NCBI GenBank assembly: GCA_947625025.1
Contig: CANQMQ010000003.1
Coordinates: 1 to 64,000 of the forward strand
Direction of reading: 5' to 3'
From: an uncultured Clostridia bacterium
GTDB lineage: Bacteria; Bacillota; Clostridia; Christensenellales; Borkfalkiaceae
Length of the DNA: 64,000 bases
Shown here: positions 5,526 to 7,206 of the stretch, one piece after another
Numbering within the stretch: position 1 is the first letter of the stretch
How the letters are laid out: every line of letters begins with the position of its first letter
Position numbers and translations under genes: made by a program
The notes under the pieces: generated by a model
Told to the model about the DNA's origin: nothing
Database searches by the model: none
Seen by the model: the letters and a program-made list of their open reading frames with translations, nothing else

Positions 5526-6971
5526 TCATTCCTTATGGAAGGTCTGGCCGCCGTCGTCGGTCACCCACACATCCCCCACGTTGTCCCGATAGCGGTTGCC
5601 ATCCAACCGAGAGAGATGGCGGGTGTAGCCGTCCACCGTAATTTCATACTCGCTCGGCGTGCTCTCCCCCGACCAACCCTGCTTCCACCCCCGCTCGAGG
5701 CCGCTTCCGCCGAGCATGATGCCGAAGGCGGAGATGATCCAGCGGATGAACATGATGAGGAAAAGGAGGATGATGGCGGCGAGGATGAGCGCCGTCGCCA
5801 CGGGGAAGAGGACGGTTACGATGTAGGCCGTGCCGATCTGCCAACCGTCGGGCAGCCCCTCGCACCAGAAGAGGTAGGCGAAGATATACGCCACCGTAGA
5901 GACGACGAGAGCGGCGGGAAGGAACCATGTAATTACCATCCCGATGATGTGGTCTTGCGGCTCGGGCATGTTCATGAAGAGCACGAGGCCCAATACGTCT
6001 GCGCCGATCATGAGGATGATGCCGAGGATGTTCAGCGCCCTCTTTGCCCCATAGGGCATGCCGAACGGGTCGAATACGCTGAGGAAGAGGAGGACGGAGG
6101 GCGTGATGAGAAGATACGCAAGCGCAATGCCCTGCACGAGCTCGGCCGTATCCCCGCTTCCCATCGGCCTGAAATAGCAGAATAGACCCATGGACAAAAG
6201 GACGATATACAGGGCGGCAACGCTCGCGAATGCCCAGAGCCGCTTGCCCTTTTCGGCCTTGGGCCTTTGCGGAATGTTGGATTTAATGCGTTCGAGAATG
6301 CCCACCTTCTTGGGAGCCTCTTCGGGAGGAGGAAGGGTGACGCCCGCCGCCTGCAATGCGGCCGTGCAATCGGCAATGACCTGCTCCCGCATCTCCCCTT
6401 CCTCCACGTACTGCGCCGTATCGGGGGCGCTATTGTCGATATGGAGGATGTACATTTGGAAGGCGGCGCCGCGGCCCAAGCTCACCACATAGTAATATTC
6501 GCCCCCGTACACATTCCCCCACAGGAAATCGAAGGAAGCTACGTGCGTTCCATCCTGCAATTCGATGGTGCTGACGTCTGCGGCATGGGAGAGGATGGTG
6601 CGCATGTCGAGGCCGTGCGTCTCGCGCACGGTGCCATCGGGGAGCTCTGCAAGGGGCACCGCTTCGGGCGCTTCCTGCACTGCGGGGGTTTCCTGCACTT
6701 CGGGCACAGCCTGCGCTTCCTCAGCCTTCTTTTTCTTCTTACGGCCGCGGTCGAGGACGGCGGCGCCGATGATGATCATCACGATCCCGATCCCATACCC
6801 GATCTCCGTTCCGCGCACGACGCCGCCTTCCCCGAATATGTTCTCAAAGGCAGGCAGAGAGCCCATAATGCCGAGCACAAGCCACACGGCGCCGATGAGA
6901 AAGCAAACGACGGAAATGGCGATGTATTTGCCTATGCCCGTTTTCTGCTTCTTAGGCTTTTTTTGTTTCAT
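5526..6971 (-). CDS. Multi-pass membrane protein of unknown function
   Basis: 481 residues with a Lys-rich cytoplasmic start (KQKKPKKQK), two N-terminal membrane segments (about 14-36 and 48-68), an acidic/Ala-Pro linker, a soluble domain (about 100-225), and a C-terminal block of about five membrane segments (about 240-440), ending in a short polar beta-rich tail (GYTRHLSRLDGNRYRDN). I do not recognise the family. The ATG at 6971 has GGAGG 7 nt upstream; longer frames would read through a terminator hairpin. The leader is unusual: a promoter, a long structured RNA and an intrinsic terminator precede the gene, so its expression looks conditionally attenuated. The C terminus lies 80 bp from rpmB in convergent orientation and may share its terminator. 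Confidence 0.75.
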   Translation of the reverse strand: MKQKKPKKQKTGIGKYIAISVVCFLIGAVWLVLGIMGSLPAFENIFGEGGVVRGTEIGYGIGIVMIIIGAAVLDRGRKKKKKAEEAQAVPEVQETPAVQEAPEAVPLAELPDGTVRETHGLDMRTILSHAADVSTIELQDGTHVASFDFLWGNVYGGEYYYVVSLGRGAAFQMYILHIDNSAPDTAQYVEEGEMREQVIADCTAALQAAGVTLPPPEEAPKKVGILERIKSNIPQRPKAEKGKRLWAFASVAALYIVLLSMGLFCYFRPMGSGDTAELVQGIALAYLLITPSVLLFLSVFDPFGMPYGAKRALNILGIILMIGADVLGLVLFMNMPEPQDHIIGMVITWFLPAALVVSTVAYIFAYLFWCEGLPDGWQIGTAYIVTVLFPVATALILAAIILLFLIMFIRWIISAFGIMLGGSGLERGWKQGWSGESTPSEYEITVDGYTRHLSRLDGNRYRDNVGDVWVTDDGGQTFHKE

Positions 6972-7021
6972 AGAATACCTCCGTAAATTTTGGGCGATGC
7001 CCGATTTGTCCCAAAGGGCAC

Positions 7022-7052
7022 AAAAAAAGTGTGCCTTCAACCGAAGACACAC
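7022..7052 (-). terminator. Leader terminator upstream of the membrane protein gene
   Basis: Minus-strand stem of 10 bp including one G:U pair (7043-7052 with 7029-7038), loop GGTT, then seven T residues (7022-7028). It is 51 bp upstream of the ATG at 6971, so it would end transcripts before the coding region. It could also serve as the dipeptidase 3' terminator. Confidence 0.8.
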
Positions 7053-7073
7053 CGCGTCGGTATCCCCGGTTGT

Positions 7074-7172
7074 TGTCACACAAGTTTTCCGAAATAAAGG
7101 TTGAAAGGAAAACGGGAGATACGCAATGCCCATTATGCGCTCCCTTTCAACACTCTATTCGCTTGTGTGACA
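7074..7172 (-). ncRNA. Candidate structured 5' leader RNA (attenuator or riboswitch-like)
   Basis: An 11-bp perfect inverted repeat (7074-7084 with 7162-7172) encloses a 9-bp one (7100-7108 with 7143-7151) and a smaller apical stem (CGCA/TGCG, 7122-7125 with 7136-7139). The transcript predicted from the promoter at 7178-7206 would begin almost exactly at the 5' arm. A terminator hairpin follows 20 nt after the closing helix. I matched it to no riboswitch class I can recall (TPP, SAM-I, lysine, glycine, guanidine-I, c-di-GMP, T-box were considered). The regulatory role is inference. Confidence 0.5.
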
Positions 7173-7177
7173 GCATC

Positions 7178-7206
7178 AGTATACCACAACCGTGCCGAAT
7201 TGACAA
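7178..7206 (-). promoter_or_regulatory. Promoter of the structured leader and membrane protein gene
   Basis: Minus-strand -35 TTGTCA (7201-7206), 17-nt spacer, -10 TATACT (7178-7183); start site near 7171. It lies between the dipeptidase stop and the leader RNA. Confidence 0.6.

Follow-up and report, generated by a model that had tools for sequence, protein, structure and literature searches.

A candidate pseudoknot-controlled transcription attenuator outside Rfam 15, located before surface-protein genes of uncultured Clostridia

Organization of the locus

The window analysed here is a stretch of 64,000 nucleotides (contig CANQMQ010000003.1 of assembly GCA_947625025.1, positions 1 to 64,000 of the forward strand) from an uncultured Clostridia bacterium of the family Borkfalkiaceae, order Christensenellales. 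Its minus strand carries a gene for a 481-aa protein, for which a Pfam search gave no match, behind a structured leader; the gene upstream encodes a membrane dipeptidase-like M19 protein. The leader and the gene comprise the following features.

7178–7206, minus strand: promoter, with −35 box TTGTCA (7206–7201), 17-nt spacer and extended −10 box TATACT (7183–7178)
7162–7171, minus strand: 5′ strand of helix P1, GTCACACAAG, at or adjoining the predicted transcription start (comparison of relatives)
7156–7160, minus strand: conserved NATA bulge (GAATA in the window) at the P1/P2 junction (family conservation)
7143–7151, minus strand: 5′ strand of helix P2, GTTGAAAGG (computed fold)
7136–7140, minus strand: 5′ strand of helix P3, GCGCA (computed fold and relatives)
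7126–7135, minus strand: P3 loop with conserved GGC (family conservation)
7121–7125, minus strand: 3′ strand of P3, TGCGT, two bases of which are common to the pseudoknot strand
7115–7122, minus strand: predicted pseudoknot 5′ strand, GTATCTCC (partner permutation and pair counts)
7100–7108, minus strand: 3′ strand of P2, CCTTTCAAC (computed fold)
7075–7084, minus strand: 3′ strand of P1, CTTGTGTGAC (pair counts)
7053–7074, minus strand: J, the 22-nt strand between P1 and the terminator
7060–7072, minus strand: predicted antiterminator 5′ strand, CAACCGGGGATAC, in J (permutation, alignment and energy)
7060–7067, minus strand: predicted pseudoknot 3′ strand, GGGGATAC, within the antiterminator strand (strand-overlap count in members)
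7038–7050, minus strand: predicted antiterminator 3′ strand, GTGTCTTCGGTTG, covering the loop and the greater part of the terminator 5′ arm
7029–7052, minus strand: intrinsic terminator hairpin of 10 bp with loop GGTT (scan and alignment)
7022–7028, minus strand: terminator U tract, seven T in the DNA (sequence)
7017–7035, minus strand: hairpin GGCAC(AC)U7GUGCC, possible in read-through RNA (minimum-energy fold of the J region)
6978–6982, minus strand: Shine–Dalgarno sequence GGAGG (sequence)
5526–6971, minus strand: putatively regulated gene, encoding the 481-aa protein with hydrophobic stretches, ATG at 6971

The promoter agrees with the consensus at 10 of 12 positions and has TG ahead of the −10 box (TGnTATACT), and the region holds two promoter-like sites versus 0.4 expected. 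P1 encloses P2 and P3 and closes the first 99 nt of an RNA of about 150 nt; from the end of the U tract to the ATG there are 50 nt. A promoter, a helix closing the first 99 nt, a terminator and a gene, in this order, had been described in a previous sequence-only reading, and that description is accurate. The leader RNA folds at −83.9 kcal/mol, compared with −55.5 ± 4.7 for shuffled sequences (z = −6.0; 0 of 200 as stable). The terminator scan taken alone stays within chance (one found, 2.0 expected); the feature stands beyond chance because it is conserved.

Read upstream, the frame of the gene is uninterrupted as far as an AUG in the P3 loop, which would extend the open reading frame to 535 aa (7133–5526, minus strand). 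This AUG is probably fortuitous, as it lacks a Shine–Dalgarno sequence and none of 168 leaders combines such a sequence with an AUG ahead of the terminator.

Distribution of related leaders

A DNA search with a 241-base query matched 36 of 201 related genomes, upstream of different genes. Two covariance models were built, R1 from 27 leaders and R2 from 80 matches. With R1 (cut-off 1e-3), 90 of 396 order-level genomes are positive, representing 37 of 142 genera; with R2 (1e-4), 89 of 391 class-level genomes are positive, representing 54 of 222 genera. When R2 was applied to a draw from the phylum (1e-5), only one of 398 genomes was positive, namely the source genome itself, so chance firing of the model is rare. 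These samples overlap. Copies per genome are lower bounds, no more than eight candidates per genome having been scored in searches over 40 genomes and no more than seven in the phylum search, and negatives may be false: genome G108 yielded none in the order search and one in the class search.

Within the source genome R1 places the RNA at 11 sites, eight with E-values of 2e-11 or better and three weaker. Two of the weaker copies are degenerate: in C7 (L194) the 5′ half of P1 is missing, and in C34 (L195) the 3′ arm of the terminator; they may be what is left of elements being lost.

Searched for as an exact pattern, the conserved 3′ part occurs in 49 stretches of named genome contigs, whose carriers are metagenome-assembled or uncultured Clostridia, Firmicutes, Eubacteriales, Candidatus Coproplasma, Borkfalkia (a member of Christensenellales) and one Candidatus Scatousia. 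The last copy (L111, 992–1131) lies on a contig of what we take to be another phylum, through misbinning or transfer. The same exact pattern gave no match in viral contigs, nor did one class-level member used as a query against plasmid and phage records.

For comparisons among members, 167 order-level matches were taken from three lists (78 of 80, 56 of 57 and 33 of 69); the matches left out were opposite-strand echoes (two and two), one cut at a contig end and, in the third list, mostly duplicates. They represent 165 distinct RNAs, reduced to 118 after removal of those more than 85% alike and to 117 with a terminator (L194 dropped), hereafter the order set. The class set comprises 51 members derived from 59 of 60 matches (L203 left out, same genus).

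Conserved helices and unpaired bases

Column counts were made on a MAFFT alignment of 27 sequences fitted to no structure. Across P1, the pseudoknot and the terminator, 98.4% of cells are paired, and 19 of the 28 pairs have changed on both sides, a number reached by none of 500 shuffles; these helices hold 79 double-change cells versus 17.7 in shuffled alignments, with a covariation of 0.372 versus 0.157. The antiterminator is paired in 95.4% of cells and holds 10 double-change cells versus 2.0 shuffled. Sliding the partner by one to three columns loses most of the pairing in both column counts. Three of the seven pseudoknot pairs are invariant in this alignment.

Several unpaired positions are also kept: the NATA bulge in 101 members of the order set (of 117) and 48 of the class set (of 51), GGYW in the P3 loop in 96 and 43, respectively, and CAA after P1 in 112 and 48. 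Such conserved unpaired bases argue for a putative binding site; their number suggests enough for one, but few for a typical aptamer. The sequence of P1 is conserved beyond the need of pairing as well (UGC-ACAYAA / UUGUGURGCARCAAU), and this stretch could be a protein site.

Two alternative pairings of J

When the oriented leaders are placed side by side, two predicted pairings of J emerge that are hidden in the minimum-energy fold and had been missed by the sequence-only reading; it is the comparison of relatives that reveals them. The first is the pseudoknot, in which GUAUCUCC (7122–7115, after P3) complements GGGGAUAC (7067–7060, in J). Its strands change together in relatives (GUAUCUC/GAGAUAC, ACCCC/GGGGU, GUAUCCU/GGGAUAC, CUUCUCU/GGAGAAG), with AAAAAUGCAU/AUGCAUUUUU as a class-wide example. 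The second is the antiterminator, a 13-bp helix between CAACCGGGGAUAC of J (7072–7060) and GUGUCUUCGGUUG of the terminator 5′ arm and loop (7050–7038), which co-changes likewise (CAAUAUGGGAU/GUUCCAUAUUG, CAAAUUCGGGAUAC/GUGUUCCGAAUUUG, CAUUGAGAGAUGCGUU/GGCGUGUUUCUCAAUG).

Both pairings were assessed by permutation, scoring the best contiguous helix of each strand with its own partner against partners permuted among members (2000 permutations in the order set). For the antiterminator, the 117 order-set members score 22.65 with their own partner versus 13.85 permuted (sd 0.38, maximum 15.15), and the 51 class-set members 19.32 versus 12.78 (sd 0.52). For the pseudoknot, the values are 16.90 versus 14.39 (sd 0.25, maximum 15.23) in the order set and 20.38 versus 15.63 (sd 0.54) in the class set; member by member the pseudoknot contrast is modest, the own partner beating 90% of swaps in 30 of the 117 order-set members. 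Permutation scores of P1 and the terminator are biased, because these helices were picked by their own pairing; the tests of the antiterminator and pseudoknot are free of that choice.

The strand of J is common to both pairings, so that they exclude each other and would compete wherever they overlap. Of 168 members, 128 have an overlap of at least 3 nt of J; by this measure no conflict is seen in the other 40. A different switch had been put forward before, with GUGUG of the P1 3′ arm pairing to CACAC of the terminator 3′ arm; it is barely borne out, as the excess over permuted partners is small (10.75 versus 9.45, sd 0.26, in the order set; 12.54 versus 11.83, sd 0.33, in the class set). By eye, the GGCAU of the P3 loop may also pair with AUGC after J in some members.

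The calculated energies in the window are −17.5 kcal/mol for the antiterminator, −14.9 for the terminator and −12.9 for the pseudoknot duplex, which makes the switch energetically possible, and J is able to pair with the terminator 5′ arm before the 3′ arm is made. The window is untypical in its order of stability, since in 132 of 168 members the terminator exceeds the antiterminator in stability and the reverse holds here. In read-through RNA, the freed GGCAC could pair with the GUGCC just past the U tract (region −27.9). A helix around the terminator is found in many members (own 13.87 versus permuted 11.66, sd 0.26). In relatives this outer helix appears as GCGGGC/GCCCGC or GCAGGGC/GCCCUGC; it covaries modestly and would exist only in read-through RNA.

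Promoter and gene position across the family

Of 116 members, 114 have a −10 box no more than 24 nt away from P1, and the box ends 4–6 nt ahead of the helix in 89 of these 114; the background at random upstream places is 32 of 111. With such spacing, the RNA should start within or right beside P1. We know of no other leader in which promoter and sensor are linked so tightly.

At the other end, 82 of 106 cases have, on the same strand and no more than 100 nt downstream, the ATG of an open reading frame of at least 60 codons with a Shine–Dalgarno sequence; the corresponding counts are 2 of 106 for the opposite strand upstream and 6 of 106 for random places. The conserved structured RNA thus lies in the 5′ leader and runs in the direction of the gene, as riboswitches do, while comparison and energies together point to the other hallmark of these elements, an expression platform in which one structure would exclude another. 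The order of promoter, leader, terminator and gene, previously taken as a mark of attenuation, recurs before unrelated genes, and the conserved antiterminator would exclude the terminator; that interpretation has gained accordingly from the relatives.

Whole elements also occur as tandem pairs, 36–150 nt apart, in 12 cases (L125, L084, L090, L103, L101, L109, L189, L182, L231, L236, L235 and L242), an arrangement known for riboswitches; the pair in the source genome has promoter-like sequence before each copy. In four class-level loci (L208, L209, L211 and L219) the terminator is directly followed, ahead of the gene, by another conserved inverted repeat (CTTTGTAAATTTCGCG...).

Genes behind the RNA

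An open reading frame preceded by a Shine–Dalgarno sequence was found within 500 nt of 156 of the 165 distinct leaders. By rough patterns of our own making, 81 of the 165 first genes are lipoprotein-like, 17 encode zinc-ribbon proteins, 21 have an N-terminal signal or membrane segment, 6 have an LYALRAGLS start and 31 are of other kinds, with none behind 9 leaders. A Pfam scan at the order level covered 104 proteins (the window protein and 103 of the 109 references listed) and returned LRR_5 (BspA-type) in 32, Zn_Ribbon_1 in 10 and Flg_new in 5. The class-level scan covered 39 of 43 proteins, with LRR_5 in 4 of 39, SLH in 2 of 39 and a wide remainder. The surface bias is weaker in the class set, since 22 of its 51 first genes are neither lipoprotein-like nor signal-bearing. 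As judged from these predictions, the RNA is located directly before unrelated genes, mostly those for lipoproteins and other surface proteins. One leader before many unrelated genes favours a common signal and argues against autogenous control by one protein.

In the source genome, a family of 88-aa proteins (MKYYKEQNGEETSI...DCVHCRKR) stands behind four copies of the RNA, including one tandem pair (L189, 2646–2909; L191, 3825–4088; L192, 3891–4154).

Candidate signals

Cyclic di-GMP was considered as the signal and is unlikely: the source genome, 99.59% complete and carrying 11 matches to the RNA, encodes no GGDEF protein, and neither the c-di-GMP-I nor the c-di-GMP-II model of Rfam matches. 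At the order level, GGDEF proteins occur in 12 of 40 RNA-positive genomes (28 of 40 being without) and in 5 of 18 RNA-negative ones; at the class level they occur in 12 of 20 RNA-positive genomes. Since there are genomes with the RNA and no GGDEF protein, cyclic di-GMP is not required.

Of 22 RNA-positive genomes, 21 encode a cyclic di-AMP synthase (DAC domain), an uninformative figure, as most Bacillota have DAC. The ydaO model of Rfam gave no match in the loci scanned. Gene neighbourhoods in the source genome offered no clue to the signal.

Proposed mechanism and alternatives

We consider it likely that this RNA is a cis-acting transcription attenuator controlled by a pseudoknot, and an orphan riboswitch candidate outside Rfam 15. 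The earlier proposal of an undescribed structured leader with a terminator, possibly a riboswitch or attenuator, is strengthened by its covarying helices and by the lack of an Rfam match. In our model, the RNA would start at about the first base of P1, making its 5′ end part of the sensor helix. While the pseudoknot is held, J would be occupied, the terminator would form and transcription would stop, leaving the gene off; once the pseudoknot is released, J would pair with the emerging arm of the terminator, and RNA polymerase would continue into the gene. This balance would be tipped by the binding of a signal, a small molecule being the likeliest candidate and a protein a less likely one; we infer ligand sensing. 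One signal would set the expression of many surface-protein genes per cell, and our guess is that it turns them off.

We further hypothesize, with belief and doubt about evenly balanced, that the RNA represents a new riboswitch class, present in roughly a quarter of sampled Clostridia (89/391) and often in many copies, which responds to a single diffusible signal distinct from cyclic di-GMP, determines which lipoproteins and further proteins gut bacteria display at their surface and has the RNA 5′ end within its sensor helix.

The same switch could instead answer to an RNA-binding protein able to keep the pseudoknot closed or to open it, in the manner of antitermination or attenuation proteins. 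The conservation of the P1 sequence beyond pairing and the small number of conserved unpaired bases would suit such a protein-responsive attenuator, but we recognize in the conserved part no site of a known antiterminator protein, and we regard this alternative as rather unlikely. Competing helices of similar strength would equally befit an RNA thermometer, or an ion or kinetic sensor that binds no organic ligand; melting, however, has no need of a conserved NATA bulge, GGYW loop and CAA after P1, and the explanation is improbable.

We give still less credence to a small regulatory RNA, in which the terminated product of about 150 nt would act in trans and read-through would be incidental. Its own promoter and terminator, a start at P1, a compact pseudoknotted fold and many copies per genome would all be expected of such an RNA; the co-directional gene with a Shine–Dalgarno sequence within 100 nt (82/106 versus 6/106 at random places) would not, nor would an antiterminator that co-varies although it is useless to a stand-alone RNA. 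Finally, a mobile inverted repeat or promoter cassette spread without regulatory role, which the sequence-only reading had itself raised as its undoing, would explain the unrelated sites, the many copies, the promoter carried along and the tandem pairs, but it is scarcely credible given the fixed promoter and orientation toward the gene, copies that by inspection differ widely within one genome, an antiterminator maintained by compensatory change and the lack of matches in the viral contigs (exact pattern) and the plasmid and phage records (one class-level query); the random orientation and near-identical copies typical of mobile elements or MITEs were not found.

If the attenuator model holds, surface genes of uncultured gut Clostridia, including those for BspA-type leucine-rich repeat lipoproteins, zinc-ribbon and S-layer-like proteins, would share one sensor and one signal, and identifying that signal would reveal what the bacteria sense as they remodel their surface. 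The covariance model allows the regulon to be listed genome by genome. A leader so widespread and yet missing from Rfam would indicate that much of the regulatory RNA of the gut is still unlisted.

Comparison with known systems

The sequence-only reading had found no resemblance to a known class, and a covariance search of the window against Rfam 15 agrees. At the gathering score, no Rfam 15 family matched the RNA in the window, in 19 order-level loci or in 17 class- and order-level loci, the only hits elsewhere in those loci being SRP RNA and tRNAs. Searches by E-value (401 bases; 7 loci) gave scattered and implausible hits below threshold. The best of the low hits, P31 sRNA on the plus strand, was rejected at 19.7 bits versus a cut-off of 40. 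A 2017 paper reportedly presents 224 candidate RNAs. The portions of the literature covered by our search contain no description of this RNA (PMC2864571, PMC8632094, PMC11477304, PMC11109978, PMC6429828).

An antiterminator/terminator switch is shared with T-box and leader-peptide attenuators, but the T-box model of Rfam has no match here; leader-peptide attenuation was discarded, since a Shine–Dalgarno sequence with AUG precedes the terminator in 0 of 168 leaders. The raiA motif, which is in Rfam, is likewise a widespread structured RNA of Bacillota, whereas the RNA described here is unmatched by Rfam, close to its gene and co-directional with it. For raiA, a large distance from the next gene or an orientation opposite to it is described as frequent (PMC11477304).

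Placement of many copies before surface genes recalls the cyclic di-GMP riboswitches I and II, from which the RNA differs in having no Rfam match; in C. difficile, several of them precede genes for surface or secreted proteins (PMC11477304). The nearest system by context is the SLH motif, a riboswitch candidate with 80 examples, first found in Thermovirga lienii and occurring in Clostridia among other groups; it is described as a candidate leader of genes for surface-layer and unknown proteins, with SLH proteins behind about 60% of examples (PMC6429828). Behind our RNA, by contrast, LRR_5 is the commonest domain (32/104) and SLH is found in 2 of 39 proteins. The comparison with that motif was by description only, and the two may be the same RNA.

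Transcription-terminating riboswitches with pseudoknotted aptamers, such as the preQ1, fluoride and SAM classes, are close in architecture: a pseudoknot, mutual exclusion of terminator and antiterminator, a position in the 5′ leader and tandem copies are also present here. Unlike in those classes, the RNA presented here would begin at P1 itself, and the genes behind it are tied to no single metabolite.
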